This document shows, piece after piece, positions 24,631-46,385 of a stretch of DNA of 64,000 nucleotides. Source of the DNA: Mycobacterium saskatchewanense. Lineage in GTDB: Bacteria > Actinomycetota > Actinomycetes > Mycobacteriales > Mycobacteriaceae. The stretch is from NCBI RefSeq assembly GCF_010729105.1, contig NZ_AP022573.1, forward strand, positions 4,898,001 through 4,962,000. The letters are read 5' to 3'. The translations under genes were made by a program, and so were the position numbers. Within the stretch, counting starts at the first letter, position 1; every line of letters starts with the position of its first letter. A model generated the notes under the pieces. The model was not told the DNA's origin. It searched no databases and worked only from the letters and a program-made list of their open reading frames with translations.

Positions 24631-24705
24631 TTCCGGGCGGCCGGCGATCGACAGCCTGGCCGCGAAGCCGAATTCGACTGAAGACCCTCGAGGAAGGGAT
24701 GCATT

Positions 24706-26700
24706 GTGACGCAACCGAGCGGTGGACTGCCGCTGTCTTTCACCGACAAGTGCAAGCGGGTGTTCCTCGGAAAGCCCCTGACCACCGATCAGCTGGACGG
24801 CGAGCGGCTGCCGAATCACATTGCTCTGGGCGCACTTTCGCCGGACGCCATCTCCTCGACCGCGTACGGAACCGAGCAGATCATGATCGAACTGCTCCCT
24901 GCGGCCGGTATGGCGGCGTTTGCATTGGTGCTTCCGATCACCGGCGTCATCCTCGTTGTCCTTGCGCTGGTGTCCGCGTCGTACCGACAGGTCGTCATGG
25001 CTTACACCCGGGCCGGCGGGTCCTACACGGTCGCGCGAGAGAACTTCGGTCCGCGGGTGGCGCAGGTCGCCGCTGCGGCGTTGCTCATCGATTATGTGGT
25101 CACCGTGGCGGTGCAGCCGGCGGCGGCGACGGTGGCGGTGGTCTCGGCGATTCCCCCGCTGCGGCCCTATCACCTCGAGATCACACTCGCGGCCGTAGTC
25201 CTCATCTGCCTGGCCAACCTGCGCGGGCTGCGACGGTCGGGTCGCACGTTCGCGATGACGACCTATGCCTTCGTCGGAATGATCACCCTGACGATTGTGA
25301 CCGGAATCGTCCGCGAAATGTTCTGGGGATTGCCGAAATACGACCCCCAGCACATCGTGGGAGCTGTGCCGGTTCATCAGGGCGGCGGGCTCGTGATGGG
25401 CGCGTCCATCCTGATCGTGTTGCGCGCGTTCGCCAACGGCGGCACGTCGTTGACCGGGGTGGAGGCCGTGTCCAACACCGTCAACGTCTTGCAGAAGCCG
25501 CAGGGCCCCAACGCCCGTCGCGTGCTGACGTGGATGGCCTGCATACTCGGCTTCTTGCTGGCGGGCGTCGCGTGGCTGACGCACGTCACCCACGCCGTGC
25601 CGTATCTCGATGAGTACCCGTCGATGTTGTCCGAGATCGCCAGGGCGGTCTTCGGCCACGGGGTGATCGGCAATGCCTTGTACTTCCTGGTGCAGGCGTC
25701 GACCGCGGCCATCCTCTTCACGGGATGCAATACCAGCTTCAACGGCTTTCCTGCGTTGGCCAGTTTCGTTGCCGAGGACCGCTTTCTGCCGCGTCCGCTG
25801 ACGAAACGTGGCCATCGCCTGGTCTTCTCGAACGGCATCTTCGTGTTGACGGCGCTGGCTATGGTGCTGCTGATCATCACCGAAGCCAAGGTCAGTGCGC
25901 TGGTGCCGTTCTTCGCGATCGGCGTGTTCACCGCATTCGCGATGGCTGGTTACGGCATGGCCAAGCACCACTTGACCCGCCGCGAGCCAGGCTGGCGATT
26001 CAAGCTGGCGGTGAACCTGTCGGCAGGAACGATGTCGACGGTCGTGGTGGGCATCTTCGTGGTGGCCAAGTTCACCGAGGGCGCCTGGCTGATCGTCGTC
26101 ATCTTCCCGTTGCTGGTCCTGGCGCTGATGCGCCTGAACCGGAAATACTGCGACGAGGCCTCGGTATTGGAGATGTCGCGCGCCGAGCATCTTGACCTGA
26201 CCCGGCATCCGCGACTGCAGGTGCTGGTTTTTGTGGACTCAATCGATCTCGCGGAGATCGAGGCGCTACGCCTCGGCTACGGGTTGCACGCCGACGAGCT
26301 CACTGCGGTGCATTTCGTCATCGACGTCGATCATGCGATGGCGCTGCGGGAACGTTGGAACGTCTTCGAGCACGACACGCCGCTGTGGTTGATCAACTGC
26401 CCAGATCGCCACCTCGGCCGAGCCTCGCACGAGTTGGTGGTACGGGTTCTCAACGACCATGCGGACACCAAGGTGACGGTGCTGTTGCCGCGGAGGACCT
26501 ATTCGCCGCTCCTGGGTCGCTTACTGCACGACCGGACTGCCGACAAGATGGCCCGCGCCGTCAGCCGCATCCGCGGGGCGACCGCCATCATCGTTCCGTA
26601 CGACATCGAGTCGCGCATAGCGCGCGTCGCCCCGGCTGATCTCGAGGTCGAGCCGCACGACGTCGTCGGGGCGGCCAGGTCCACCCTCGTGGGTGATTGA
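24706..26700 (+). CDS. KimA-like potassium/amino-acid permease (copy 2)
   Basis: 664-residue paralogue of the preceding gene, very similar over its whole length: FLGKPLTT...LSPDAISSTAYGTEQI, about 12 TM segments and the same soluble tail (VLVFVDSIDLAEIEAL, LPRRTYSPLLGRLLHDRT). The start is GTG 24706 with AGGAAGGG ten bases upstream. The gap to copy 1 is 75 bp, so the two are probably one transcript and arose by tandem duplication. In KimA the C-terminal domain dimerises and binds c-di-AMP; the tail here suggests a similar arrangement, unproven. It could also carry an amino acid, as many APC members do. Confidence 0.86.
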   Translation: MTQPSGGLPLSFTDKCKRVFLGKPLTTDQLDGERLPNHIALGALSPDAISSTAYGTEQIMIELLPAAGMAAFALVLPITGVILVVLALVSASYRQVVMAYTRAGGSYTVARENFGPRVAQVAAAALLIDYVVTVAVQPAAATVAVVSAIPPLRPYHLEITLAAVVLICLANLRGLRRSGRTFAMTTYAFVGMITLTIVTGIVREMFWGLPKYDPQHIVGAVPVHQGGGLVMGASILIVLRAFANGGTSLTGVEAVSNTVNVLQKPQGPNARRVLTWMACILGFLLAGVAWLTHVTHAVPYLDEYPSMLSEIARAVFGHGVIGNALYFLVQASTAAILFTGCNTSFNGFPALASFVAEDRFLPRPLTKRGHRLVFSNGIFVLTALAMVLLIITEAKVSALVPFFAIGVFTAFAMAGYGMAKHHLTRREPGWRFKLAVNLSAGTMSTVVVGIFVVAKFTEGAWLIVVIFPLLVLALMRLNRKYCDEASVLEMSRAEHLDLTRHPRLQVLVFVDSIDLAEIEALRLGYGLHADELTAVHFVIDVDHAMALRERWNVFEHDTPLWLINCPDRHLGRASHELVVRVLNDHADTKVTVLLPRRTYSPLLGRLLHDRTADKMARAVSRIRGATAIIVPYDIESRIARVAPADLEVEPHDVVGAARSTLVGD

Positions 26701-31679: not shown

Positions 31680-31800
31680 GACCCGCGCTTGCCGTGCAGC
31701 CGGCTACTGGCTACTAGACCTGGTCATCACCCGGGGCACCCCACCGCGGTTGGAGGGTTGCCGGCCAGCAAGCCGGGGCTTGACGCTGGCGCTCATGACC
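31680..31800 (-). ncRNA. SAM-IV riboswitch
   Basis: Reading the minus strand, the segment begins GGTCATGAGCGCCAGCG, continues with AAGCCCCGGCTTGCTGGCCG, then GGCAACCCTCCAACCGCGGT, GGGGTGCCCCGGGTGATGAC and ends GGCAAGCGCGGGTC. These are the conserved blocks of the actinobacterial SAM-IV class in the correct order, including the GGCAACC..CCGCGGTGGGGTGCC core shared with SAM-I and the 3' pseudoknot helix. About 121 nt, matching the M. tuberculosis RNA in the same place. It binds S-adenosylmethionine and should down-regulate metY-metX-methyltransferase. Confidence 0.93.
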
Positions 31801-31817: not shown

Positions 31818-31890
31818 ATGGTGCCGACTCCGTGCCAACCCCGATGGCCTTGACCATCGGACGCCGCGCGGGCTTCTTGAGGACCGGCCC

Positions 31891-33102
31891 CTACAGCTGG
31901 TCCAGGTCATCGGCCGCCGGCGTGTCGGGCTTCGATGCGTACAGTTCGTGCAGACGCAGCGCCACCGACAGTTCATCTCGCCGCGACAGGAGTGGCCGCC
32001 CGAGTTTCTCCTCGACCGTACGCAGCCGGTAGCCGACGGTTCGATCGTTGAGCGAGAGCCGGTTAGCGGTTGCCGATGCGTTGTGTCCGGCGTCGAAGTA
32101 GGCGCGAACGGTAGTGCGCAGTTCCTCAGCGCGCTGGTCGTCCTCTGCCAGGAACCCGAGTTCGCGCTGGATGAACTCGCGTGCCAGCGTCGCGTCATGG
32201 CTGGTGAGGGACAGCAGCGCCACGTCGGCGTACTGCAGCGTCCTGGACCCCAGCTGTCGACCGATGCGGTATGCCTCGCGAGCCTCCCGATGGCTGATCC
32301 GGAAACCCTCCAGGCCCTCGCCCACCTCGCCGAACGCGACGAAGGTGGTGCTCGGCACGGCGGCCACCACAGCCTTCTGGGTCGCCACGTCTCGAAGGTT
32401 CTTGCCGCCGATCCACGCCCAGACGGATTGAGTCGGTCCTCGGACGGTGAGGCAGCTCAAACCGCTACGGGCAGCGAGCCGGCGGATCACCCCTTCGGAG
32501 CCCTCTCCAATCGAGATGGCGGCCATGTGCGTATCTGTAAGTCGGTAGGGGAGCTTGCTCTGGTCGATGGGTAGCCCGTCGAGCAAGTCTCTGACCATTT
32601 GCCTTCGCCGACGGTCACTTTCGCGGAAAAGCGACAACCGCTCCCCCTCGTAGACCTCGGTCACCAGGACGATCATCCGGTCGAAGTAGGCAAAAAGGTA
32701 GCGAGAGCTGAGCTTGAGGACCTGCGAACGTACGGTTGACTCGTCGATCGTCTGCTCGGCAACGTCCATGGTGTGCTCCCAGATGACCGAGTGGCCGGTC
32801 CGATACGTCTGGATGAGCGCCTCCAATGAGATGCCCCACTGGGCCACGGCGCGCGTCTCCTCGACCGCAGCTGTGGGGAGCGCCTCTGGGATGACGCGGT
32901 CCGAGGTCATCTGGTCGAGCATCAATCCGAGATGCGCGTAGCAACTCGCGGTATACAGGGTGACAAAGTCGGGATCGTCGGAACTGAAGAAGGCCGGGAT
33001 GTCGACCCTCATTCGCTGGAGCATCTCCTCGACCATCGGGCGGTGGCGGTCGCGCAACCGTACGCGCAACGTCGCCATCCGCTGATCCATCGAGTCTCCC
33101 AC
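31891..33102 (-). CDS. PucR-type transcriptional regulator
   Basis: 403 residues. The N-terminal two thirds is helical and ligand- or partner-sensing (RsbRD-like/GGDEF-like PucR layout); the C terminus is the PucR HTH_30 domain with the helix-turn-helix ASATANRLSLNDRTVGYRL (about 350-370), then GRPLLSRRDELSVALRLHEL. GTG 33102 has GGGAGGAGG upstream; ATG 33090 also has GGGAG at a good distance, so the start is unresolved. It is divergent from the eight-gene catabolic cluster across 313 bp and is probably its controller. PucR proteins often respond to nitrogen compounds or pathway intermediates. Confidence 0.85.
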   Translation of the reverse strand: MGDSMDQRMATLRVRLRDRHRPMVEEMLQRMRVDIPAFFSSDDPDFVTLYTASCYAHLGLMLDQMTSDRVIPEALPTAAVEETRAVAQWGISLEALIQTYRTGHSVIWEHTMDVAEQTIDESTVRSQVLKLSSRYLFAYFDRMIVLVTEVYEGERLSLFRESDRRRRQMVRDLLDGLPIDQSKLPYRLTDTHMAAISIGEGSEGVIRRLAARSGLSCLTVRGPTQSVWAWIGGKNLRDVATQKAVVAAVPSTTFVAFGEVGEGLEGFRISHREAREAYRIGRQLGSRTLQYADVALLSLTSHDATLAREFIQRELGFLAEDDQRAEELRTTVRAYFDAGHNASATANRLSLNDRTVGYRLRTVEEKLGRPLLSRRDELSVALRLHELYASKPDTPAADDLDQL

Positions 33103-33415
33103 TGCCCTCCTCCCGGTCGAACTTCTCGTCGATGGTATTGCCAATGCCCATCGAACCGCCGCGTTTAACAAATGCGTTAACAGTTGATTTCGGTGAGCGT
33201 CATGAAGACGGGCGTTGTTACACAGGCGAACCGGACGGACCTCACGCCTACCGAAGATCGCAAAGACCGGCGTCAAAGTTTGACGGCTTTCGTAATTGTC
33301 GCGACGGCACACCGCGCAGCAAAGTTAGCCGCATGTGCCCACCAAGCGCGACAGGTGTCACGGAATGCCTTGGCGTTCCAACACCTAACCGGCCACGAGT
33401 TGAAGGATCAACGTC
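33103..33415. promoter_or_regulatory. Divergent promoter region of the catabolic cluster
   Basis: 313 bp without a gene, visibly less GC-rich than the flanks. It holds a near-repeat GCGTTTAAC/GCGTTAAC at 33161-33181, a small palindrome ATTGCCAAT at 33137-33145 and the imperfect palindrome listed next. These are candidate operator or promoter elements for the PucR regulator acting in both directions. Confidence 0.5.
33353..33386. promoter_or_regulatory. Imperfect palindrome upstream of the kinase gene, candidate operator
   Basis: Arms AGGTGT...GGAATGCC and GGCGTTCC...ACACCT flank a TT centre, with one mismatch and a 2-nt bulge. It sits 29 bp before the first gene of the cluster. It could be the binding site of the divergent PucR regulator or a leader RNA hairpin. 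Confidence 0.4.
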
Positions 33416-34429
33416 GTGATCCAGTTCTGCGACGATATCAACGTCACTGTGCGGCAGACGATTACCGCGCGGTTGAGTAACTGGCTTCCAGCTGACGGTG
33501 TCGCCGACGTCAAGGTGCGGGCACTCCCGGGTGGCGCCATCAACCGCAATTACCTGGTCGATGTCGGCAACGGTTACGTCCTGCGCCTGGCACCCCCCGC
33601 GCGGTCGAGAGCTCAGATCGGTATCGACATGGCCAATTCGGCCGTCGTTGCGAGAATCGCCGCGGAGGCGGGAGTTGGGCCATCGGTTATCGGTGTGGAT
33701 CAGGAGACCGGCGATTCGTTGATCGAGTTCCTCCCCGGAGTCCTCAGCGCCAGCACCATTCGCGATCTAGACGTCCTGCGTCGGGTCGGCGACACCGTCC
33801 GAAGGCTTCATGAACTGCCGGTAGGGACCGTTCGTCGGGTGTCCGCGTTCGACGAATTCGACGAATGGTTCGGCAATGCCGTCGGGCGGTGCGCGCCGCA
33901 CGCCGAAAAGTACTCGGCATTGCAGAAATCGCTCGAGGCATGCCGCACGGTCCTGGAGAACGTGGAAGGCACCTGCCTCTCACACCGGGATCTCAACCCG
34001 CAGAACTGTATTCAGACCAACGACACGGTCAGGCTGATCGACTGGGACTTCTCCGGCGTGGACAGCCCTTACCTTGACCTCGCGATGCTCGCCACCTACG
34101 CCGAGCTGGACGACGGTCAGTTGGACGTCTTCGTCCGCGCCGCAATACCCGACTTCGAGGCAGAGGACCTGGCGCGGGTGCAACTGATGCGGTTCGTTCA
34201 TGCGTTGCGCGAGTGGGCCTGGTGTCTGAGCGCCAGCGACTTACTCGTCGACCGCACCCATGCCGAAGCGGCTCTGTTGCCCACCACGCAGTCCGGCGTA
34301 GAGACAAACTTCTACGACGGTTACCGCGCGGTCAACTGGCGGTTTGCCGTGGACCTCAGCAGTGATGGCCGGTGGGACATGTGGCTGCACAGTGCGTCGT
34401 CAGCACTCCCGGCACCCGGATTCCGGTGA
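33416..34429 (+). CDS. APH/choline-kinase-family phosphotransferase
   Basis: 337-residue protein-kinase-like small-molecule kinase. Brenner motif LSHRDLNPQNC (catalytic Asp near residue 187) and the metal-binding LIDWDFSGVDSP follow an N-lobe with GGAINRNYLVDV. These resemble choline/ethanolamine or amino-alcohol kinases more than aminoglycoside resistance enzymes; the substrate is unknown. The start is GTG 33416 with AAGGAT upstream. First of eight same-strand genes; it may activate or trap the cluster's substrate. Confidence 0.8.
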   Translation: MIQFCDDINVTVRQTITARLSNWLPADGVADVKVRALPGGAINRNYLVDVGNGYVLRLAPPARSRAQIGIDMANSAVVARIAAEAGVGPSVIGVDQETGDSLIEFLPGVLSASTIRDLDVLRRVGDTVRRLHELPVGTVRRVSAFDEFDEWFGNAVGRCAPHAEKYSALQKSLEACRTVLENVEGTCLSHRDLNPQNCIQTNDTVRLIDWDFSGVDSPYLDLAMLATYAELDDGQLDVFVRAAIPDFEAEDLARVQLMRFVHALREWAWCLSASDLLVDRTHAEAALLPTTQSGVETNFYDGYRAVNWRFAVDLSSDGRWDMWLHSASSALPAPGFR

Positions 34430-34437
34430 GCGAAGGC

Positions 34438-34469
34438 AACAGCGATGAGTGACAACAGCGATGAGTGAA
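34438..34469 (+). repeat. 16-bp tandem duplication at the kinase/cupin junction
   Basis: AACAGCGATGAGTGAC at 34438-34453 is followed directly by AACAGCGATGAGTGAA at 34454-34469, with 15 of 16 bases identical. It lies between the kinase stop and the cupin ribosome binding site and contains two ATGAGTGA units. Confidence 0.85.
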
Positions 34470-34490
34470 AGGAAAGAGGAGCACGGACCA

Positions 34491-34883
34491 ATGGCGGGCA
34501 ACGATTCACGTGAGAACCTGGCAACACTGGCCTATGCGTCGAGCGTCGACGCTCAGCATCTGGTGTCTATGACGCCGGAGGAACTCGGCCTCGTCGACGT
34601 GTGCGGAAACCCCGACATGCTTGTCCACGAGTTGCGTTCGACCAGTGGACCGGGCGGCAGCGTGTGGGCTGCCGTGGTCACAGTCTTTCCGTGTTGCTTC
34701 AATTATGTCTTTGCCGGGAATGAAACCGTTCTCGTTCTCGAGGGAGAAGCCACGGTCGAGGTTGGCGGGACGCAAATCGTCGAATTAGGACCCGGGACCA
34801 TCGCATCCTTCACGAAGGGGACGAAGTCGCGGTGGCGAATTCACAAGAGATTACGCGAATTCGCGGTGCTCACGGACACCTGA
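34491..34883 (+). CDS. Cupin-domain protein (DUF861-like)
   Basis: 130-residue single-domain beta-barrel. VLVLEGEATVEVGGTQIV followed by LGPGTIASFTKGTKSRW is a cupin motif pair in which most metal-binding histidines are replaced, as in DUF861. No signal peptide. The start ATG 34491 has GAGGAG upstream; an alternative at 34461 gives ten extra residues. Members act as small isomerases, hydrolases or binding proteins; in similar oxidase/dehydrogenase clusters the role is undefined. Confidence 0.75.
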   Translation: MAGNDSRENLATLAYASSVDAQHLVSMTPEELGLVDVCGNPDMLVHELRSTSGPGGSVWAAVVTVFPCCFNYVFAGNETVLVLEGEATVEVGGTQIVELGPGTIASFTKGTKSRWRIHKRLREFAVLTDT

Positions 34884-34939
34884 TCACTCGAAAACCCTTG
34901 TATGTCGTATGAATTAAGGCCGCCCCGGAAGGAAGAAGT

Positions 34940-36367
34940 GTGTCAAACGTTGCTGACGTTCGCCCTGTGAAGGACCGTCGCTCCATCGACGGAAAGGTTC
35001 TCTGGCTGGACCCGGAGGCCGGTGCGCCCACTACGTCCGCGGCACCCTCGCTCGCCGGTGATGTGGAGGCGGAGTTCTGCATCGTGGGCGGCGGATTCCT
35101 GGGACTGTGGACCGCGTTGAAGTTGCTCGCGGCCAAGCCGGACGCCGACATCATCCTCCTCGAGGCGAAGACCTGCGGCTGCGGGGCGTCCGGCCGCAAC
35201 GCCGGATTCGCGATGACGATGTGGTCGAAGGCTGCGTCGCTGACCAAACGCGCGACGGTCCAGGACGCCGCCCGTCTGGCACAGGCGAGCGAAACAGCAC
35301 TGACCGAAATCGCCGGGTTTTGCGCCGCTGAGGGCATCGACTGCGGCTTCGACATGTCCGGCTGGTTGTGGACTGCGAACGCGCCCGCACAGGTGGGCTC
35401 CTGGGAGTCGACGGTGAGGGCGGCCGAGTCCCTCGGTGGCAGCCCCTTCGAGCGGGTATCCGCCAAAGACGCTCGTGAGCGCCTGGGCACCGACAATGTA
35501 TTCGGCGCGGTGTTCGAGGAGAAATCCGCGATCGTGGACCCTGGACGGCTGGTGCTCGGGTTGCGCGACGCGGTCGCGCGTCGCGGCGTACGGCTGTTCG
35601 AGAACTCGGCGGTCAAGAGCATCGATCGAGCCGGTCAGGTCGTCACCACCGACGCAGGCTCGGTGCGGTGCCGCCAGCTCATCTTGGCCACGAATGCCTG
35701 GTTGGCGGAGCTGCCGGAGTTGAGGCGCGTGATCGTCCCCGTCTCGGCGGACGCGGTCGCAACCGAGCCTGTGCCGGACTTCTTGGACTGTAACTGGCGC
35801 GCCCGCGAATCCTGGACCAACTCCGGCACTGTCGTGGACTTCGCCAGGCCCACCGGCGACCGGCGAGTGGTGTTCGGCCGAGGGGCGGCTGCCATCGCGT
35901 TCCGCGGTCAGATCGACGACCGCTTCTTCGTGAATCCCCCTCGCACGCTGGAACTCTCGACGGCACTCGTGCAGCAGATACCCCGGCTGTTCGGTGCTGC
36001 GGTGACCCACTCCTGGTCGGGACCGGTAGATCGCACACAGGACGGTCTTCCGATCATCGGCCGACTTCCCGGGTCGCGGGCGCTGTTCTGTGCGGGCTTC
36101 GCCGGCAACGGCGTTGGGCCCTCGGTCGTCTTCGCCCAGATGCTTGCGTCGCTGGCGTTGGGGCTCGACGACGCCTGGGCCGCAAGCAGTTACGTCGGGA
36201 TACCGAAATACCGCTTCCCGCCGGAGCCGGTGCGCTATGTCGGCGCGCTGATGATCCGTGGAGCGGTCCGGCGCCACATGGCCGCCAGCGATCAAGGCCG
36301 GCCGAGCTCACGCCTGACGAAGCGATTGGCCGAACTGGGGCCCACCGGGCTCATGAAGGTGAAGTGA
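34940..36367 (+). CDS. FAD-dependent amine/amino-acid oxidase-like oxidoreductase (DAO family)
   Basis: 475 residues. The Rossmann FAD motif is FCIVGGGFLGLWTAL near residue 46, followed by the ribose-binding EAKTCGCGASGRNAGF; the C terminus has the second FAD motif LFCAGFAGNGVGPSV. Closest type is the gamma-glutamylputrescine oxidase/glycine oxidase group, which oxidise a C-N bond to an aldehyde or keto acid. An aldehyde dehydrogenase is next, which supports amine-to-aldehyde chemistry. The start is GTG 34940 with GGAAGGAAG upstream. Confidence 0.82.
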   Translation: MSNVADVRPVKDRRSIDGKVLWLDPEAGAPTTSAAPSLAGDVEAEFCIVGGGFLGLWTALKLLAAKPDADIILLEAKTCGCGASGRNAGFAMTMWSKAASLTKRATVQDAARLAQASETALTEIAGFCAAEGIDCGFDMSGWLWTANAPAQVGSWESTVRAAESLGGSPFERVSAKDARERLGTDNVFGAVFEEKSAIVDPGRLVLGLRDAVARRGVRLFENSAVKSIDRAGQVVTTDAGSVRCRQLILATNAWLAELPELRRVIVPVSADAVATEPVPDFLDCNWRARESWTNSGTVVDFARPTGDRRVVFGRGAAAIAFRGQIDDRFFVNPPRTLELSTALVQQIPRLFGAAVTHSWSGPVDRTQDGLPIIGRLPGSRALFCAGFAGNGVGPSVVFAQMLASLALGLDDAWAASSYVGIPKYRFPPEPVRYVGALMIRGAVRRHMAASDQGRPSSRLTKRLAELGPTGLMKVK

Positions 36368-36379
36368 TGGTCACGACGC

Positions 36380-36409
36380 GAACCGTGGGAAAGAGAACCG
36401 TGGGAAAGA
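36380..36409 (+). repeat. 15-bp perfect tandem duplication before the aldehyde dehydrogenase
   Basis: GAACCGTGGGAAAGA occurs at 36380-36394 and again at 36395-36409, immediately before the GTG start at 36413. The purine-rich GGGAAAGA in the second copy probably serves as the ribosome binding site, so the duplication also doubles that site. Confidence 0.9.
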
Positions 36410-36412
36410 ACA

Positions 36413-37906
36413 GTGAATCTCCAGTCTGAAGCCGCACCCGAGGCGGTGCATGTCTCCGAGCGGCCTCATTACGGCCTGTTCATCGGGGGCTCCTTCGTCG
36501 ACGCCCTTGACGGTGACGTCTTCCCTTCGGTCAACCCCTACACCGGGGAGGACTGGGCCTTCATGGCCAGGGCGGCCAGCGCCGACGTGGACGCCGCCGT
36601 CGCGTCCGCCCGTCGTGCCTTCGAGCTCTGGTCGCGGACGTCGGGACGCCGGCGAGCCGCCCACATGCACAGTCTGGCAAGGGTCATCGAGAAGAACGCT
36701 GACCGGCTGGCGCGCATCGAGACCATCGACAACGGCAAGCTGTTGGCGGACACCAGCCGACACGTCCGGGGACTGCCGGCATGGCTGGACTACTTCGGCG
36801 GATTGGCCGACAAACTGCACGGAACCACGATCCCCCTCGAGGAGCCCGGGCTGGTGGCCTACACCAAACGGGAGCCAGTCGGCGTGGTGGCTGCCATCAC
36901 GCCCTGGAATGCCCCGCTCGCGGTTCTGTTGTGGAAGCTTGCGCCAGCACTGGCCGCGGGGTGCACGATGGTGATCAAGCCATCCGAGCACGCCTCCGCG
37001 TCAACCCTTGAGCTCGGAAAGCTGTGTGTCGAGGCGGGATTGCCCGACGGGGTCGTCAACATCGTGACGGGATTCGGCCACGAGTGCGGCGAGCCGCTGG
37101 TGCGTCACCCAGGGATCGACAAGGTCTCGTTCACCGGCTCGACGGCGGTCGGTTCGGCAGTGATGCGGACCGCCGCGACGAACATCACCGGCGTTGCCCT
37201 GGAGTTGGGCGGCAAGTCCCCCAACATCGTCTTCGACGACGCCGACCCCCAAAGGGCTTCCGAGGCGGCCGCGAAGGCGATCTTTTCCTCGACGGGCCAG
37301 AGCTGCCAGGCGGGCTCGCGACTCTTCGTGCAGCGCCGGCTCTACGACGACGTGGTCCGACGCGTGGCCGGTCACGCCGAGGCGATGAGGCTCGGCAACC
37401 CGCTGGAGCCGTCGACCGACATGGGACCGGTGGCCTTCCGTGCACACCTGCAGCGAATCGCCGCGCTCGTCGCCGCCGCCCAGGACGAGGGCGCCGCCCT
37501 GGCGGCCGGCGGTCGGGCGCCCAGCGCCCCTGAGCTGGGCAATGGATACTTCTTTGAACCGACGGTCCTGAGCGAGGTACGCAACGACATGACCATCGCT
37601 CAGGAAGAGGTTTTCGGCCCGGTTCTGGCGGTGCTTCCCTTCGAGGACGAGGCCGACGTGATCCAGCAGGCCAATGACAGTCCATTCGGCCTCGCCGCAG
37701 GAGTGTGGACACGCGATGTCAGCCGCGCCCACCGGGTCGCTGCCAACCTTCGCGCCGGCACGGTCTGGGTCAACACGTTCCGCCGAATCGACCCCGCGAT
37801 GCCGTTCGGGGGCGTCAAGCGCAGTGGTATCGGCCGCGACAGCGGCGTCGAGTCGCTGAACGAGTACTTGGAAACCAAAGCGGTGTGGATAGACACGTCT
37901 GCCTGA
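36413..37906 (+). CDS. NAD(P)-dependent aldehyde dehydrogenase
   Basis: 497 residues of the ALDH superfamily. Oxyanion-hole Asn in TPWNAPLAV, Glu motif ELGGKSPN, nucleophile FSSTGQSCQAGSRL (Cys about 298) and C-terminal PFGGVKRSGIGRDSG are intact. Converts an aldehyde, probably from the preceding flavin oxidase, to a carboxylic acid. The start is GTG 36413, just after the tandem repeat. Exact aldehyde unknown. Confidence 0.93.
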   Translation: MNLQSEAAPEAVHVSERPHYGLFIGGSFVDALDGDVFPSVNPYTGEDWAFMARAASADVDAAVASARRAFELWSRTSGRRRAAHMHSLARVIEKNADRLARIETIDNGKLLADTSRHVRGLPAWLDYFGGLADKLHGTTIPLEEPGLVAYTKREPVGVVAAITPWNAPLAVLLWKLAPALAAGCTMVIKPSEHASASTLELGKLCVEAGLPDGVVNIVTGFGHECGEPLVRHPGIDKVSFTGSTAVGSAVMRTAATNITGVALELGGKSPNIVFDDADPQRASEAAAKAIFSSTGQSCQAGSRLFVQRRLYDDVVRRVAGHAEAMRLGNPLEPSTDMGPVAFRAHLQRIAALVAAAQDEGAALAAGGRAPSAPELGNGYFFEPTVLSEVRNDMTIAQEEVFGPVLAVLPFEDEADVIQQANDSPFGLAAGVWTRDVSRAHRVAANLRAGTVWVNTFRRIDPAMPFGGVKRSGIGRDSGVESLNEYLETKAVWIDTSA

Positions 37907-37953
37907 TGTGAGGCGTGGCTCACCCACAGGGACCAACAGCGAAAGGAAACCGC

Positions 37954-38826
37954 ATGGATGGCAAGGGCCTGGTGAATGGCCTCCTGGCGGGCAAGGCGGT
38001 GATCGTCACCGGGGCAGGAAGTGGCATCGGAGCCGCGGTGGCAAAGCAGGCCGCCGCCGACGGAGCGAACGTCCTGCTCCTTGGGCGACGCGTGGACAAG
38101 CTGGAGGAAACCGCTGCCGCCATCGGCGACGGCGCGCTTGTCCAGCGATGCGATGTGACGCAGCAGGCCGACATCGACCGGGCGGTCGCCCTCGCCCTCG
38201 CCAGGTGGGGCCGGATCGACGGACTCGTGAACAACGCCGGGATGTTCGTCATGGCCCACGCCCTTGAGATGACGCGGGAGCAATGGAATCAGGTTATCGA
38301 CGTCGACCTGAGCGCGTCGTTCTTCTTCACGCAGGCGGCGGGCCGTGTCATGGCACGCGCGGGTGGGGGCTCGGTCGTCAACATCGCCTCGGTCAACGGG
38401 CACCAGGGCGAACCGCTCAACGCGCCCTACAACGCGTCAAAAGCGGGCCTGATCGGGTTGACCCGTTCCCTTGCGATGGACCTCGGCCGCTTCGGGATCC
38501 GCGTCAACTCCGTCAGCCCCGGATATGTCGACGGGACCCCCATGGCCGACGACACGGGCGATGCCGACGAGCCCATGAGCGTGCTCCTCAGTGATTGGCA
38601 GCGTGCGCCGCTGCGGCGGATGGTGGACACCCCGGAGGTCGCGAACCTGTGTACGTTCCTGCTCTCAGACAGGGCGTCGGGCATGACGGGATCGGACGTG
38701 GTCATCGATGGCGGGATGCTGACGAATCACTATGCGCTCGAATCAGTCCCGGCTACGGGATGGGCGTCCTTCCAGGACAGCGTTACCGCGCAGGTGAGGG
38801 CCAAGCTGGTGTCCGGCGAACTCTGA
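37954..38826 (+). CDS. Short-chain dehydrogenase/reductase
   Basis: 290-residue classical SDR: cofactor loop VTGAGSGIGAAV, NNAGM, catalytic Ser in NIASVN and YNASKAG. After the catalytic region is PGYVDGTPMADD, and the end (about residues 260-290) is longer than usual. Likely NAD(H)-dependent alcohol or 3-hydroxyacyl dehydrogenase acting on a pathway intermediate. ATG 37954 has AAAGGAAA upstream; an upstream in-frame ATG at 37915 is not favoured. Confidence 0.9.
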   Translation: MDGKGLVNGLLAGKAVIVTGAGSGIGAAVAKQAAADGANVLLLGRRVDKLEETAAAIGDGALVQRCDVTQQADIDRAVALALARWGRIDGLVNNAGMFVMAHALEMTREQWNQVIDVDLSASFFFTQAAGRVMARAGGGSVVNIASVNGHQGEPLNAPYNASKAGLIGLTRSLAMDLGRFGIRVNSVSPGYVDGTPMADDTGDADEPMSVLLSDWQRAPLRRMVDTPEVANLCTFLLSDRASGMTGSDVVIDGGMLTNHYALESVPATGWASFQDSVTAQVRAKLVSGEL

Positions 38827-38937
38827 GGGCGACGAACTTCTCGTCGGCATACGCGATCGATAACACATCCGATTCTCTGCCCGGCGCCGCGTGGTGAATG
38901 AAACAAGACACGGATGCACAAGGTGAAAGGACCCTCA

Positions 38938-40398
38938 ATGGCCGTACAGGAAGAGCCGAAGGTCGGAGTTGTCAACCAAATCGAGCTGCACTCAATCGAT
39001 TACGTCCCGTTGCGAGCACGCCACGGCCGGCTTGTCGACCAGACCACGATCTGGTTCGCGTGTTTCCATCCACTGACCCTGGTGACCGGCGCGATCGGCA
39101 TCGGCTTGGGGTTGAATCTCATTTGGACGTTGCTCGGGGTGGCGCTCGGAACGCTGTTCGGCACGATCCCGGTGTCCATCCACGCCACGCAGGGTCCCCA
39201 CCTCGGATTACCCCAGATGGTGCAGACCCGGCCGCAGTTCGGCCGATACGGTGCCCTGTTCATCTGGGTGATGGCAATCGTCGTTTACTGGGGTTACCTC
39301 GTCGTGGGCGGCAACATCTTCGGCACCAACCTGCACCAGTTCGTCGGCGGTAGTGCGCCCGTCTGGGCGATAGTCACGGGCGTCGTCGCGATCGTGTTGG
39401 CGATCTTCGGGTATCGGTGGCTGCATTCCGCGCAGCGCATTGTCTCCATTGGACTCGTGATCGTGTTGGTGATCTACATTGCAGGGCTGGCAGTCGGCGG
39501 CTACATCCCGGGCAACGCGCTCAACCTCGGCGAGACCTTCCAACCGGTGCCGTTCGCGGTCACCGTCTCGGCGGCCATGGCCTACCAGCTGTCGTGGGCG
39601 TTCTTCGTCTCGGATTACTCGCGCTACATGCCCCCGGACACCAACCGCGGCGCCATCATCCTGTGGACGTCGATCGGCCTCTATTTCAGCGTGTTCGCCT
39701 ACGAAGCGGTCGGCGCCATGGCCGCGGCGATGCTGCCCGGCGACGACATCATCGCAAGCGTGTCGGCGACCGGTGACCACGTCTTCCCCGGGCTGGGGAC
39801 GCTGATGCTCCTGGTCTTCGGGTTGGGATTGCTCGGCCTCATGGGGATGTGCGTCTACGGCGGGTCACTGACGCTCATCACTGCCATCGACAGCATCCGG
39901 CCCGTCGATGTGAGCCGCTCAATCCGCGTCGTCACGATCCTGTTGCTCGGGGGCAGCAGCGCGATCGCGGGCGCTTTCCTGCCCGACAATTTCCTCAACA
40001 CCGTTTTCCTGGTCGTCCTGGAGGTGTTCGCCTACCTGATGGCGCCGTGGACGTCAGTGAACTTGACCGATTTCTTCATCGTCCGGCGGGGGCACTATTC
40101 GGTGCGCGAAATCTTCAAGCGCGACGGCATCTATGGGCGATGGAATTGGCGCGGCATCATGGCGTACACGGTCACGTTTCTCGTCATGATCCCCTTCATG
40201 CACGCTTCCCACTTCGAGGGCCCGATCTCTGCCGCGTTGGGCGGGATAGACGTCGCGTTCTTTGTGGGGGTGCCGGTCGGCTGCCTGACCTACTGGCTAC
40301 TGTGTCGCAACCTCGACATGGCAACCGAGCGTGAGGTGGTCAAAGAGTCCGACCGTGACCTTGAGCCAGTCGTACGTGATCTCGAAGCGATTGCATGA
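38938..40398 (+). CDS. NCS1-family permease (nucleobase/hydantoin/cation symporter)
   Basis: 486-residue membrane protein with about 12 TM helices and the NCS1 start region SIDYVPLRARHGRLVDQTTIWF. VSDYSRYMPPDTNR in the middle and APWTSVNLTDFFIVRRGHYSV late are typical of the cytosine/purine permease branch. It provides the import step of the cluster. Specificity cannot be read from sequence; members carry purines, cytosine, allantoin, hydantoins or thiamine precursors. ATG 38938 is preceded by GAAAGGA. Confidence 0.88.
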   Translation: MAVQEEPKVGVVNQIELHSIDYVPLRARHGRLVDQTTIWFACFHPLTLVTGAIGIGLGLNLIWTLLGVALGTLFGTIPVSIHATQGPHLGLPQMVQTRPQFGRYGALFIWVMAIVVYWGYLVVGGNIFGTNLHQFVGGSAPVWAIVTGVVAIVLAIFGYRWLHSAQRIVSIGLVIVLVIYIAGLAVGGYIPGNALNLGETFQPVPFAVTVSAAMAYQLSWAFFVSDYSRYMPPDTNRGAIILWTSIGLYFSVFAYEAVGAMAAAMLPGDDIIASVSATGDHVFPGLGTLMLLVFGLGLLGLMGMCVYGGSLTLITAIDSIRPVDVSRSIRVVTILLLGGSSAIAGAFLPDNFLNTVFLVVLEVFAYLMAPWTSVNLTDFFIVRRGHYSVREIFKRDGIYGRWNWRGIMAYTVTFLVMIPFMHASHFEGPISAALGGIDVAFFVGVPVGCLTYWLLCRNLDMATEREVVKESDRDLEPVVRDLEAIA

Positions 40399-41081
40399 CG
40401 CCGGCTCCCGCCGATATGACGGAGATTCTGTTGATCCGCCACGGCCAGCCGCGTCCGGGATACGTCGATCCACCACTTTCCCCTGTCGGCCGTCATCAAT
40501 CGGAGCGACTGGGACGGTGGCTCGCGGGGGAACGCGTCGACGCGGTGGTCGCGAGTCCGATGGCCCGCGCCCTCGAAACCGCGGAGGTCGCAGCCCATGA
40601 GATGGCGCTGGCGGTGGCCGGCACCCTCGAGGATCTCCGCGAATGGGACCGCGACCATCGATCCGACGGGACTTACGTGGCGATAGAGGATTTGGGGGAC
40701 GACAACCCCCGGTCTCACGCGCTGAGGACTGGCCGCTACGAATACTTCGTTCCAGACATCGACCGCACTGGCTTTCTGTCCCGCGCCCGGCGGGTCGTGG
40801 ACGAACTCAGCGACCGCTGGCCGGGCCGGAGAGTGGCGGCGTTCAGCCACGGCGGGCTGATCAACGCGGCGCTGTCGACAGTGCTGGGGCTCGAGGAGCA
40901 GCTGTTCTTCTTCCTGCCCGACTACACGTCGGTGTCGACCGTGCGGGTCATGCCCGGCGGCCGGCGTGTCGTGCACGCACTGAACAACACGAGCCACCTG
41001 GTGGGACAACGCGTTCCCGAGCCTGACTCGATGCTGGCCCGCCGGCCTGGCGCCGACCGGCCGATCATTCGAACCCAATAA
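40395..41081 (+). CDS. Histidine-phosphatase (phosphoglycerate-mutase-like) family protein
   Basis: 228 residues with the RHG motif LLIRHGQPRPG near residue 15, VVASPMARALETAEV, and the second catalytic His in AAFSHGGLINAAL. The ATG overlaps the permease stop (ATGA at 40395-40398). Could remove the phosphate added by the cluster's APH-like kinase, or act in repair of a dead-end phosphate; this pairing is inference. Confidence 0.85.
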   Translation: MTPAPADMTEILLIRHGQPRPGYVDPPLSPVGRHQSERLGRWLAGERVDAVVASPMARALETAEVAAHEMALAVAGTLEDLREWDRDHRSDGTYVAIEDLGDDNPRSHALRTGRYEYFVPDIDRTGFLSRARRVVDELSDRWPGRRVAAFSHGGLINAALSTVLGLEEQLFFFLPDYTSVSTVRVMPGGRRVVHALNNTSHLVGQRVPEPDSMLARRPGADRPIIRTQ

Positions 41082-41103
41082 GCGATCGTTCGAACCCAAT
41101 AAG
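41062..41103 (+). repeat. 21-bp tandem duplication at the phosphatase/ligase junction
   Basis: CGATCATTCGAACCCAATAA plus G at 41062-41082 is repeated at 41083-41103 with one A/G difference. The phosphatase stop TAA lies in the first unit; the second ends 8 bp before the ligase ATG. Confidence 0.9.
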
Positions 41104-41111
41104 GTGGTGGG

Positions 41112-42746
41112 ATGGCGCCCACGAGCCCGGAGGCATCCTCACCCGTGCATGCAGTGGCAACCAGAGGGGGCCATTCCTCGTTGGTCGATGCGTGGCGCGC
41201 CAGGGTCAAACGGGAGCCGGACGCCCGCGCGATCGCGTATTTCGACGGGGCCATGACGGTCCGTGAGTTCGATGAAGCCAGTGATGCCCTCGCGGCCGGG
41301 TTCCGATCGCTCGGCACTTCCCGTGGGGACCGGGTCGGTATCTACCTGCAGAACATTCCGCAGTACGCCCTGTCGTTCCTCGCCCTCTGGAAGCTCGGGG
41401 CCACCGCGCTCCTGCTCAACCCGATGTACCGAGGTCACGAGTTACGGCGGCTGATCGATGATGCCGAGGCAGTCGGCATCGTCTGCACCGACGACGACGT
41501 GGCGGAAACCTCGGCGACCTTGGCCGGCAGCTCGGTCCGGTGGGTGGTGAGCACGTCACCCCTGGCCTTTCAGAGCCGCAATGATCCACGAGTGTTCGAT
41601 ACGGACGAACGTGTGGCCCGCGACACGGACCGTGACCTGGAGAACCTGATCGCGCAGTTCCGCGGGAGGTCCGCGCCCCGGCTTGACCTGACGTCAGACG
41701 AGGTCGCCCTGCTGACCTACACCTCCGGAACGACCGGTCCGCCGAAGGGCGCCACCAACACACACGGCAACCTTCTCGCGGTCACCGACAGCTTCGCTGC
41801 CTGGATCGACCTCCAACCCGGGGATGCAGTGTTCGCGATGGCGCCGTTCTTCCACATCACCGGCGCCGTCGTCAACGCCGCCATGGCCTTGCTGCATGAC
41901 GCAATCCTCGTGCTGGTCAACCGCTTTCACCCCGAAGTGGCGATCGAGGCGTTTGTGGAGCACGGGGTTACTTTTACAATCGGCTCGATAACCGCCTTCA
42001 ATTCCATCTCACGGCTGCCGCACGCGTCGCACGAGCATTTTGCGTCCCTGAAGTCTGTGTACAGCGGTGGCGCGCCTATCCCGCCGTCGACGGTCGGCCA
42101 GTTCATGCAACGGTTCGGCGTGTACATCCACAACGTCTACGGGATGACCGAGACGTCGTCGGCGGTGATCGGCGTACCACTCGGCGCGGAAGCGCCCGTG
42201 GACCGGGCGAGCGGCGCGCTGTCGATCGGCAGACCGCTGCACGGGATGGAGGTGCGGGTGGTGGATGCCTCCGGCCGGCCCGTGATCCCGCATGTGCAGG
42301 GGGAACTGGTGCTGCGTGGGCCGCAGGTGGTTCCCGGCTACTGGCGGAACCCCGAGGCGACCGCGTCGACAATGCCGGACGGATGGCTGCACACCGGTGA
42401 CGGCGCCATCGTGGACGAGGATGGCTGGGTCTATCTGGTGGACCGCCTCAAAGACCAGATCAACACCTCGGGATACAAGGTGTGGCCGCGCGAAGTCGAA
42501 GATGTGCTGTCGGCGCACCCAGCGGTGTTCGAGGCGGCGGTCGTGGGGACGCCGGACGAGTATCGCGGTGAGGCGGTGGTGGCGTACGTGTCCCTCAACG
42601 GCGGTGAAACAGCCACGGAGGCCGAGATGATCGCCTTCGCCCGGGAACGGCTGGCCGCGTACAAGTGTCCGCGCGCAATCCGCGTCGTACCCGAACTGCC
42701 CAAGACACAGACAGGCAAGATCCGGCGCAACGCCGTCCGGGAGTAG
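41112..42746 (+). CDS. AMP-forming acyl-CoA synthetase/ligase
   Basis: 544-residue ANL-superfamily enzyme: the AMP/phosphate loop YTSGTTGPPKGATNTHGN (about residues 203-220), the A5 motif YGMTETSS near 342, GWLHTGDGAIVDEDGW, and the A10 catalytic Lys in PKTQTGKIRRN close to the C terminus. Would convert the acid made by the aldehyde dehydrogenase to a CoA thioester for entry into beta-oxidation or the TCA cycle. Last gene of the cluster; ATG 41112 has AAGGTGGTGGG upstream. Confidence 0.9.
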   Translation: MAPTSPEASSPVHAVATRGGHSSLVDAWRARVKREPDARAIAYFDGAMTVREFDEASDALAAGFRSLGTSRGDRVGIYLQNIPQYALSFLALWKLGATALLLNPMYRGHELRRLIDDAEAVGIVCTDDDVAETSATLAGSSVRWVVSTSPLAFQSRNDPRVFDTDERVARDTDRDLENLIAQFRGRSAPRLDLTSDEVALLTYTSGTTGPPKGATNTHGNLLAVTDSFAAWIDLQPGDAVFAMAPFFHITGAVVNAAMALLHDAILVLVNRFHPEVAIEAFVEHGVTFTIGSITAFNSISRLPHASHEHFASLKSVYSGGAPIPPSTVGQFMQRFGVYIHNVYGMTETSSAVIGVPLGAEAPVDRASGALSIGRPLHGMEVRVVDASGRPVIPHVQGELVLRGPQVVPGYWRNPEATASTMPDGWLHTGDGAIVDEDGWVYLVDRLKDQINTSGYKVWPREVEDVLSAHPAVFEAAVVGTPDEYRGEAVVAYVSLNGGETATEAEMIAFARERLAAYKCPRAIRVVPELPKTQTGKIRRNAVRE

Positions 42747-42884
42747 GCCCCGCGCTGGCCGATCGGGCGGCGCATCCAGCCTGCGGGTCGACACCCGCCC
42801 GAACGCCGCTGATAACGTGGCAGCCAGAACGCTGAGCCCGGATGAGGTCTGTCCGATCAAGATTTGAACGCCGGAAGAGGGACC

Positions 42885-45122
42885 GTGAGCGCCGAACAGC
42901 CGACCGTCATCTACACGCTGACCGACGAGGCGCCCCTGCTGGCGACCTACGCGTTGCTGCCGATCGTGCGCGCCTTCGCCGAGCCGGCGGGCATCACGAT
43001 CAAGACCAGCGACATCTCCGTGGCCGCCCGGATCCTGGCCGAGTTCCCCGAGCACCTGACCGAGGATCAGCGGGTGCCGGACGACCTCGGTGAGCTCGGC
43101 CGCCTGACGAAGCTGCCCGACACCAACATCATCAAGCTGCCGAACATCAGTGCGTCGGTGCCCCAGCTGATCGCGGCTGTCAAGGAGCTGCAGGGCAAGG
43201 GATTCAAGGTCCCGGACTTCCCGCAGAGCCCGAAGACGGACGAGGACAAGGCAATTCGCGAGCGTTACGCCAAGTGCCTTGGCAGCGCCGTGAACCCCGT
43301 GCTTCGCGAGGGCAACTCGGACCGGCGCGCACCCAAGGCGGTGAAGGAGTACGCGCGCAAGCACCCGCACAGCATGGGGGAGTGGTCGCCGGCGTCGCGC
43401 ACGCACGTCGCGACCATGCGGCACGGCGACTTCTACCACGGTGAGAAGTCGATGACGCTGGACCACGCGCGCGACGTGAAGATGGTGCTTCGGACCGAGA
43501 GTGGGGAAACCCTCGAGCTCAAGCCCAAAGTCGAGCTGCGCGCGGGCGACGTCATCGACTCCATGTTCATGAGCAAGAAGGCGCTCTGCGAGTTCTACGA
43601 GCAGCAGATGCAGGACGCCTACGAGACCGGCGTGATGTTCTCGCTGCACGTCAAGGCGACGATGATGAAGGTCTCCCATCCGATCGTCTTCGGCCACGCG
43701 GTGAAGATCTTCTACAAGGACGCGTTCGCCAAGCATCAGGAACTGTTCGACGAGCTCGGCGTCAACGTCAACAACGGACTGGTCGACCTGTACAACAAGA
43801 TCGAGTCGCTGCCCGCGTCGCTGCACGAGGAGATCATCCGGGACCTGCACGCCTGCCACGAACACCGGCCCGAGCTGGCGATGGTCGATTCGGCCAAGGG
43901 CATCACGAACTTCCACTCGCCGAGCGACGTCATCGTGGACGCGTCGATGCCGGCGATGATCCGCGCCGGCGGCAAGATGTGGGGCGCCGACGGGCGCCAG
44001 AAGGACACCAAGGCCGTCAACCCCGAGTCGACGTTCTCCCGCATCTACCAGGAGATGATCAACTTCTGCAAGACCAACGGGCAGTTCGATCCGACCACGA
44101 TGGGCACCGTGCCGAACGTCGGCCTGATGGCGCAGCAGGCCGAGGAGTACGGCTCACACGACAAGACGTTCGAGGTTCCCGAGGACGGGGTCGCCGACAT
44201 CGTCGACCTCGACACCGGGGAAGTCCTGCTGACCCAGAATGTGGAGGCCGGTGACATCTGGCGCATGCCTATCGTCACCGACGCCGCGATCCGCGACTGG
44301 GTCAAGCTGGCCGTCACCCGGGCCCGCAACTCGGGCATGACGGTGGTGTTCTGGTTGGACACCGAACGGCCGCACGAGGTCGAGCTGCGCAAGAAGGTGA
44401 AGCAGTACCTCAAGGAGCACGACACCGAGGGCCTGGAAATCCAGATCATGCCGCAGGTGTGGGCCATGAGGTACACGATCGAGCGCGCGGTGCGCGGGCA
44501 GGACACCATCGCCGCCACCGGAAACATCCTGCGCGACTACCTCACCGACCTGTTCCCCATCCTGGAGCTCGGCACCAGCGCCAAGATGTTGTCCATCGTG
44601 CCGTTGATGGCCGGCGGCGGAATGTACGAGACCGGGGCGGGCGGTTCGGCGCCCAAACACGTCCACCAGCTCGTCGAGGAGAACCACCTGCGTTGGGACT
44701 CCCTCGGTGAGTTCCTCGCGCTGGGAGCGTGTTTCGAAGACATCGGGATCAAGACCGGCAACGAGCGCGCCAAGATCCTGGGCAAGACGCTGGACGCGGC
44801 GATCGGCAAGCTGCTGGACAACAACAAGAGTCCGTCCCGCAAGACCGGCGAACTCGACAACCGCGGCAGCCAGTTCTACCTCGCGCTGTACTGGGCCGAA
44901 CAACTCGCCGCGCAGTCCGACGACGAGGAGCTGCGCAAGCACTTCGCCGCGCTGGCCGACGCGCTGAGCAAAAACGAGGACACCATCGTGGCCGAGCTCG
45001 CCGAAGCGCAGGGCGAGGCCGTTGACATCGGTGGTTACTATCGGCCGGACAGCGAGAAGACAACTGCAGTCATGCGGCCGAGCAAAACGTTTAACGAAGC
45101 GCTGGCACGCTCGCAAGGCTAA
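42885..45122 (+). CDS. icd2: Monomeric-type NADP-dependent isocitrate dehydrogenase
   Basis: 745 residues, the large IDH class unrelated in length to classical IDH. Recognised by [20 protein letters not shown] at the start, [17 protein letters not shown] substrate region ([13 protein letters not shown]), [21 protein letters not shown] and [17 protein letters not shown]. Converts isocitrate to 2-oxoglutarate plus CO2. GTG 42885 with GGAAGAGGG upstream begins the conserved region. The neighbour is icd1, only 27 bp downstream; in M. tuberculosis the two genes, as I recall, are far apart (Rv0066c and Rv3339c). Confidence 0.95.
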
Positions 45123-45149
45123 GGGCCGCGAGGAGGGAGTCGACTCGAG

Positions 45150-46385
45150 ATGTCCGACGGAAGCAAGATCAAGGTCAAGGGCCCGGTCGTCGAACTCGAC
45201 GGTGACGAGATGACCCGTGTCATCTGGAAGTTCATCAAGGACCTGCTGATCCTGCCGCACCTCGACATCAACCTCGAGTACTACGACCTCGGCATCGAGA
45301 ACCGCGACCGCACCAATGACCAGGTGACGATCGATGCGGCGTATGCGATCAAGCGGCACGGCGTGGGCGTCAAGTGCGCCACCATCACCCCCGACGAGGC
45401 CCGCGTCTCCGAGTTCAACCTCAAGAAGATGTGGTTGTCGCCCAACGGCACGATCCGGAACATCCTGGGCGGCACCATTTTCCGCGAGCCCATCGTGATC
45501 TCGAACGTCCCCCGGCTGGTTCCGGGCTGGACCAAGCCGATCGTCATCGGCCGCCACGCCTTCGGCGACCAGTACCGGGCGACCAACTTCAAGGTGGACA
45601 AGCCGGGCGCCGTGTCGATCACGTTCACCCCGTCGGACGGCAGCGAGCCGATTGTGCACGAGGTGGTCTCCATTCCCGAGGACGGCGGCGTCGTGATGGG
45701 GATGTACAACTTCAAGGAATCGGTCCGGGACTTCGCGCGCGCCTCGCTGGCGTACGGCCTCAACGCCAAGTGGCCGGTGTACCTGTCCACCAAGAACACC
45801 ATCCTCAAGGCCTATGACGGCATGTTCAAGGACGAGTTCCAGCGCATCTACGACGAAGAGTTCAAGGACAAATTCGAGGCCGAGGGGCTCACCTACGAGC
45901 ACCGGCTGATCGACGACATGGTCGCCGCCTGCCTGAAGTGGGAGGGCGGCTACGTGTGGGCCTGCAAGAACTACGACGGCGACGTCCAGTCCGACCTCGT
46001 TGCCCAGGGCTACGGCTCGCTGGGGCTGATGACGTCGGTGCTGATGACGGCCGACGGCAAGACGGTCGAGGCCGAGGCCGCGCACGGCACCGTCACCCGG
46101 CACTTCCGGCAGTACCAGGCCGGCAAGCCGACGTCGACCAACCCGATCGCCTCGATCTTCGCCTGGACGCGCGGGTTGCAGCACCGCGGCAAGCTCGACA
46201 ACACGCCGGAAGTGATCGAGTTCGCGCAGACTGTGGAAAGCGTGGTCATCGCGACGGTCGAGAGCGGCAAGATGACCAAGGACCTCGCCATCCTCATCGG
46301 TCCCGACCAGGAGTGGCAGCAGAGCGAGCAGTTCCTCAACTCGATCGCCGAGAACCTCGACAAGAAGCTCGCCGGGGCCGACTAG
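45150..46385 (+). CDS. icd1: Dimeric NADP-dependent isocitrate dehydrogenase
   Basis: 411 residues, eukaryotic-type homodimeric IDH. Seen: [32 protein letters not shown] substrate loop ([17 protein letters not shown]), PNYDGD-like [20 protein letters not shown] and [18 protein letters not shown] cycle enzyme making NADPH. RBS GAGGAGGGAG lies upstream of ATG 45150. Equivalent to Rv3339c. Together with icd2 it gives two unrelated enzymes for one reaction in one transcription unit. Confidence 0.96.

Follow-up and report, generated by a model that had tools for sequence, protein, structure and literature searches.

A putative horizontally acquired, PucR-controlled operon for breakdown of a small hydroxylated amine through phosphorylated intermediates in Mycobacterium saskatchewanense

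Gene content of the metY-icd cluster

Our analysis concerned 64,000 nucleotides (nt) of the Mycobacterium saskatchewanense genome (contig NZ_AP022573.1, positions 4,898,001 to 4,962,000; referred to as the window at its full length), in which nine genes lie between metY and two isocitrate dehydrogenase (icd) genes. A first-pass annotation made from the letters alone had described this block as a PucR-controlled catabolic cluster, and Pfam and NCBIfam matches confirmed its open reading frames (ORFs), their families, and its position between metY and the icd genes. A regulator of the PucR/CdaR type (31891..33102, minus strand; HTH_30 and GGDEF_2), with a C-terminal helix-turn-helix and a GGDEF-like domain, diverges from eight enzyme and transport genes on the plus strand. 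These encode a choline/ethanolamine-kinase-like APH kinase (33416..34429; APH and choline/ethanolamine-kinase domain matches), an EutQ-like Cupin_3 protein (34449..34883; likely start 34491), a DAO-type flavin adenine dinucleotide (FAD) amine oxidase (34940..36367), a betaine-aldehyde-dehydrogenase-like aldehyde dehydrogenase (ALDH; 36413..37906; Aldedh, 536 bits against a cut-off of 668.6), a short-chain dehydrogenase/reductase (SDR; 37915..38826; likely start 37954), an NCS1 permease (38914..40398; Transp_cyt_pur), a branch 1 histidine phosphatase (40395..41081; His_Phos_1) that overlaps the permease stop by 4 nt, and an acyl-coenzyme A (CoA) ligase (41112..42746; AMP-binding and AMP-binding_C). 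With the listed ORF coordinates, the gaps between the eight genes were 19, 56, 45, 8, 87, -4, and 30 nt, in agreement with the one-strand layout originally described.

All nine ORFs were intact, and catalytic motifs were legible in their translations: we take these to be SHRDLNPQN and LIDWD in the kinase, RHG and SHGG in the phosphatase, GQSC in the ALDH, YNASK in the SDR, and YTSGTTGPPKG in the ligase. The regulator ORF extends to 33312, and its likelier start is the GTG at 33102, which is preceded by GGGAGGAG; this start and the likely starts of the cupin and SDR genes are by-eye readings of Shine-Dalgarno-like positions. The spacer between regulator and kinase (33103..33415) is a probable control region, and a promoter scan found no site within it. 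The Pfam scan of the nine genes returned no glutamine-synthetase, pyridoxal phosphate (PLP)-enzyme, acyl-CoA-dehydrogenase, or phosphonate-specific domain. Three near-perfect, two-copy tandem duplications all sit at gene junctions of the cluster, at 34437-34468 (16 bp), 36380-36409 (15 bp; GGGAAAGA doubled, immediately upstream of the ALDH start), and 41062-41103 (21 bp), making up three of the five such duplications in the window (period 14-30, at most one mismatch).

Probable insertion at the metY-icd site

The cluster had been thought to be either inserted or lost, and comparison with congeners favored insertion. The closest congener (metY 90% identical) aligned with the window up to 31838 and resumed at 42786; this empty-site junction (31838|42786) indicates an inserted segment (31839..42785) that spans the PucR gene to the CoA ligase gene almost exactly. 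None of 14 congeners carried any cluster gene above 120 bits in the 19 kb around metY; in 11 of them metY had an icd gene no more than about 400 nt away, and in the other three (L100, L101, and L104) no icd gene was present within the fetched metY stretch. The GC content of the insert was 64.8%, against 69.3% in the remainder of the window, where the lowest value among 157 sampled stretches of equal length was 66.8%. GC content at third codon positions was 0.68-0.84 in the eight plus-strand genes and 0.90-0.95 in metX, metY, and both icd genes.

The host genome is a single contig of 6.0 Mb. Searches with the kinase matched only the window's own gene among 297 genomes of the genus (E ≤ 1e-20) and 396 of the phylum (E ≤ 1e-40), as did the histidine phosphatase among 140 genomes of the order (E ≤ 1e-28), while the DAO gave a match in one of 59 other congeners, at 33% identity (E ≤ 1e-50); in the larger genome searches a limited number of first-look candidates was scored per genome, so that absences are heuristic. 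Neither target-site repeats nor a transposase was detected at the insert ends by a repeat scan and by inspection of ORFs of 120 amino acids or longer and of the families of the nine genes. From the empty site, the 14 unoccupied metY regions, and the lower GC content, the nine-gene block most likely represents a horizontal gain rather than a loss.

Upstream of metY, a SAM-IV riboswitch was identified at 31680-31800 (minus strand; 112.7 bits). The insertion starts about 38 bp past it, where a promoter-like site on that strand (31838-31810) has its first base; one such site was found, against 1.3 expected by chance. On the other side, the neighboring isocitrate dehydrogenase genes (42864-46385) belong to two families, the monomeric PF03971 and the PF00180 type, and the closest congener holds both in unchanged order. 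Elsewhere in the window are a PPE family protein (18667-19998, minus strand), which is suggestive of a mycobacterium, and two large amino-acid-permease-like proteins within a stretch of lower GC content (22627-26700).

Relatives of the kinase and recurrence of the gene set

By sequence and by predicted fold, the kinase resembles choline/ethanolamine kinases. Its two sequence relatives with solved structures are both members of that family, and the first 20 Foldseek rows for its predicted fold (pLDDT 72, from an alignment of five) were all choline or ethanolamine kinases, headed by a Mesorhizobium protein and LicA. It also carries HxDLxxxN and DxD-type motifs, presumably the signature of the choline/ethanolamine kinase-like APH group. 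In the kinase tree, a set of nine (support 99/98) unites the window kinase with the kinases of clusters that encode a SurE phosphatase (SurE-type clusters) and excludes 11 other APH kinases; the program gave a warning about the long branch of the window kinase. An order-wide search returned 15 generic APH kinases besides that of the window, and eight of ten fetched loci had a nearby FAD-oxidase-like protein; these generic kinases were rejected as cluster members, the nine of them placed in the tree standing apart. A different choline-kinase-like APH group adjoins FAD-oxidase-like proteins at L065, L087, L088, and L091-L096; the Salipiger neighborhood (L065) also contains electron-transfer flavoprotein (ETF), FolD, PurU, and an inositol-monophosphatase-family protein. 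A kinase beside an amine-oxidising flavoenzyme may thus be a wider theme.

Searching plasmids with the kinase matched 61 records, 25 of them at a coverage of at least 80%: eight from Sphingobium (Tom series) and seventeen from Rhizobium/Sinorhizobium. The SDR matched 36 plasmid records at E ≤ 1e-30 and none at E ≤ 1e-50. All 25 kinase records fell within these 36, with less than 3 kb between kinase and SDR, a co-occurrence that, given how very large the SDR family is, is unlikely to be coincidental; the 25 records nevertheless amount to about two lineages rather than 25 events. A profile search of genome contigs with the kinase alignment added four loci (two more rhizobia, a Microbacteriaceae metagenome-assembled genome [MAG], and a Rhodobacteraceae MAG), and a class-wide search added one more genome of 394 (G1081). 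The ten kinase loci examined (L047, L048, L062, L063, L066-L070, and L112) are likewise related loci and not ten independent events.

Kinase, ALDH, DAO, and SurE occurred together in nine of these ten loci (all but L070). The SDR related to that of the window (SDR1) was present in nine (not L112), a CoA ligase in seven, an EutQ cupin in seven, an NCS1 permease in five, and EutH in two, with families called by Pfam for members of L062, L047, and L112 and by BLAST to L062/L047 members for the other loci. Gene order in L069 was ALDH, kinase, ligase, saccharopine-dehydrogenase-like, SDR1, DAO, SurE, two SDRs, and BKACE; in L112, DAO, SurE, ALDH, and kinase follow one another on a single strand. 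Identity between the window and L047/L062 was 43-44% for SDR1, 40-41% for ALDH, and 29-31% for the kinase. Like these clusters in Sphingobium, Rhizobium/Sinorhizobium/Ensifer, the Microbacteriaceae MAG, and G1081, the window combines a choline-kinase-like kinase, a DAO, an ALDH, and a phosphatase, and most of them share further classes with it (SDR1, CoA ligase, EutQ cupin, and NCS1 or EutH). It differs in having neither the SurE phosphatase nor a DAO of their group, in its permease and ligase lineages, and in a PucR regulator where TetR is annotated in the other clusters.

The window's phosphatase (His_Phos_1) and SurE belong to different Pfam families, and a phosphatase drawn from two unrelated families is what would be expected if phosphate removal were a needed step and not the work of a passenger gene. 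As far as gene families can tell, the kinase-phosphatase pair is a recurrent one, built from different parts. The linkage expected by the first-pass annotation held in part: the same functional classes recur in Alphaproteobacteria and in two other actinobacterial genomes, as traced through the kinase and the SDR, whereas the exact nine-gene set was present in no other genome examined, and the best relatives of the DAO, permease, ligase, and ALDH lie elsewhere.

Plasmids carry most of the alphaproteobacterial versions; their hosts were recorded from bean or, in the case of Sphingobium, are described as having been isolated from soil treated with tomatine. These plant and soil sources hint at plant-derived hydroxylated amines as substrates. 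The main text of the tomatine paper (PMC10653915) gave no hit for kinase, SurE, or ethanolamine. Tropane/calystegine alkaloids were considered as substrates of the SurE-type clusters in view of the plant hosts, and literature searches yielded nothing usable. In Sinorhizobium meliloti pRM41A, an SDR match had no kinase match beside it; the plasmid also carries, in fragments and with the kinase cluster absent, ORFs that share 74-93% identity with the Sinorhizobium americanum cluster's ETF subunits (L118:2340-5515).

Other cluster genes were less informative as markers. The DAO was dropped because its relatives' loci had no kinase match, and its structure model was discarded (pLDDT 44); the permease, ligase, and ALDH were set aside because the best relatives examined sit in other contexts. 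A Sinorhizobium meliloti record met in these comparisons bears no gene annotation. On a Rhodococcus plasmid (L058), a phosphatase 45% identical to that of the window shares a gene run with an APH kinase, an SDR, and an ALDH; a Rieske oxygenase is annotated in this run and no DAO is. On the Agrobacterium plasmid CP115909.1 (L050 and L057), which is not among the 60 kinase records listed, a DAO relative (43%) is adjoined by a cupin and a PucR gene, together with an NCS1 relative (55%), within about 14 kb.

Proposed pathway and rival explanations

We propose, at a probability of roughly 0.45, that the block is an operon that was acquired horizontally, is controlled by the PucR regulator, and supports growth on a small amine with a hydroxyl group (amino alcohol class), degraded via phosphorylated intermediates. 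The analysis shows the gene content, legible motifs, the unoccupied metY site of other congeners, and recurrence of the kinase-oxidase-dehydrogenase-phosphatase combination with a non-homologous phosphatase; from these we infer the substrate class, the order of steps, the role of the phosphate, the regulation, and co-transcription. In this scheme, the NCS1 permease would import the hydroxylated amine, and the choline-kinase-like enzyme would phosphorylate its hydroxyl, which would trap the substrate and mask that group. Oxidation of the phospho-amine at its C-N bond by the DAO flavoenzyme would then give an imine that hydrolyzes to a phospho-aldehyde, a step at which the cupin may assist, and the ALDH would convert this aldehyde to a phospho-acid. 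Removal of the phosphate by the histidine phosphatase would free the hydroxyl for oxidation by the SDR, and the ligase would form an acyl-CoA for further breakdown, so that each enzyme would be used once. The gene families support the amine-catabolic operon with import, C-N oxidation, and CoA activation that had been read from the letters, and recurrence of the kinase-phosphatase pair in nine of ten kinase loci strengthens the earlier suggestion of a phosphorylated intermediate.

The logic of the scheme resembles γ-glutamyl polyamine catabolism (Puu; E. coli puuPADRCBE), in which import, an ATP-dependent masking group, a DAO-family oxidase, an aldehyde dehydrogenase, and hydrolytic unmasking also follow one another. 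In the Puu pathway glutamate masks the amine, whereas the window has a kinase and a phosphatase. As previously noted, a γ-glutamyl ligase is missing: the Pfam scan of the nine genes detected no PuuA-type glutamine-synthetase ligase in the cluster (the remaining genome was not searched) and no PuuD-type γ-glutamyl hydrolase, which is present in the E. coli locus. The window DAO shares 28% identity with PuuB (143 bits) and 41 of the other DAOs compared are nearer to it, so it is not a PuuB ortholog. The window thus appears to follow Puu-type logic with another protecting group, and membership of Puu itself fails on ligase, hydrolase, and oxidase.

Direct, Puu-like oxidation of an amine is the rival that deserves most attention, and we consider it unlikely. 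The kinase and phosphatase would then be passengers or have a minor task, such as recovering phosphate from choline phosphate or ethanolamine phosphate, and no pathway intermediate would be phosphorylated. In its favor, the best relatives of most cluster genes do lie in other loci, and histidine phosphatases vary widely in function. Around the DAOs of genus and order relatives (20 loci, about 4 kb each), an ALDH stood beside the DAO in five and a kinase match in none. Nine of the ten kinase loci, however, have a kinase and a phosphatase, the latter of a different family, beside DAO and ALDH. A late role of the kinase, on a hydroxyacyl-CoA, is improbable. Such a route, with ligation, phosphorylation, and phosphate loss in turn, is known from LvaA in levulinate catabolism and from ACAD10/11, and an APH kinase, an SDR, and a CoA ligase come together here much as in lvaADE. 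In gene content, the nine genes lack an acyl-CoA-dehydrogenase partner of the LvaC/ACAD kind, the kinase resembles choline/ethanolamine kinases in sequence and fold, and the phosphatase would be superfluous.

A natural aminophosphonate or phosphorylated amine imported as such, with the DAO and ALDH acting like PbfB and PhnY, seems very improbable. The nearest NCBIfam model of the DAO is that of an aminophosphonate oxidoreductase (TIGR03329, Phn_aa_oxid), on which it scored 369 bits; PuuB of E. coli scored 183 on this model, and two relatives from the order 204 and 216. TIGR03329 probably corresponds to one of the Pbf flavoenzyme groups. As described in PMC10590968, the Pbf flavoenzymes of aminophosphonate clusters oxidize N-methyl-aminoethylphosphonate to an aldehyde, and oxidative aminophosphonate catabolism by PbfB/C/D thus shares with our scheme a DAO-family flavoenzyme and a proposed phospho/phosphono-aldehyde product. 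The score of the window DAO is short of the curated cut-off of 632.8, and its candidate membership of the TIGR03329 family was rejected. Pfam found no phnW/phnX or phnY/phnA neighbors in the insert and, in the nine genes, no phosphonate-hydrolase, PhnW, or C-P lyase domain; the ALDH gives no specific evidence of PhnY. The permease is of the NCS1 type and not a phosphonate ABC transporter, and the kinase, which implies a phosphate ester and not a C-P bond, would be left unexplained. We give even less credence to phosphorylation followed by a phospho-lyase encoded elsewhere, as in the ethanolamine, 1-amino-2-propanol, or hydroxylysine routes. APH-family kinases do begin some of these routes, but the insert contains no PLP enzyme, metY outside it serves methionine synthesis, and the DAO and phosphatase would have no role.

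Several observations weigh against the phosphorylated-amine pathway itself. The DAO falls below its model cut-off, in a range of scores (366-495 bits) common to five DAOs of varied contexts, and its relatives (12 genome loci, on contigs down to 3.7 kb, and six plasmid loci) had no kinase at E ≤ 1e-8. For the ligase, permease, and ALDH, better matches exist in loci other than SurE-type clusters. The locus of the top SDR match, from Phyllobacterium (167 bits), contains an ALDH and a distant DAO and gave no kinase match, and 11 of the 36 SDR plasmid records are not among the 60 kinase records listed. Between the window and L047/L062, the ligases share 29% and the DAOs 21-23% identity, and the NCS1 permease aligns with that of L062 at 25% over 89 residues; the correspondence with SurE-type clusters is therefore mostly by class and not by descent. 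The window lacks the saccharopine-dehydrogenase-like genes and further SDRs of those clusters, as well as the BKACE genes that they often contain; these additions suggest a larger substrate. The Rhodobacteraceae locus (L070) comprises the kinase, SDR1, and a saccharopine-dehydrogenase-like gene; its opposite strand carries a distant ALDH-like ORF (28%), and neither SurE nor DAO was matched in the locus at E ≤ 1e-10. Phosphoethanolamine was part of the Pbf substrate panel, and its oxidation is not reported in the text consulted (PMC10590968). A phosphate in the beta position would be a leaving group, so protection would be chemically sensible for some substrates only. The relatives of the DAO, ligase, permease, and ALDH in other loci, the additional genes of SurE-type clusters, L070, the Phyllobacterium locus, and the Pbf panel are the reasons for keeping the probability of the mechanism at the level given above.

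A broader reading, which we put forward more tentatively, is that an amine-catabolic scheme with phosphate as a removable protecting group on an amino-alcohol hydroxyl arose in bacteria more than once, with the phosphatase and oxidase recruited independently and the window representing the histidine-phosphatase form. No second copy of the full nine-gene set was found in the genomes examined. The open-licence literature of PubMed Central yielded no paper that we recognized as describing such a cluster, and within that literature the initial view that no pathway with this gene set has been described still stands. The proposed scheme makes a prediction that can be checked with four purified enzymes. 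If true, it would explain what the generically annotated APH-family kinases, SurE proteins, and histidine phosphatases of catabolic clusters do, and it would add a phosphorylation-based branch to bacterial amine breakdown.

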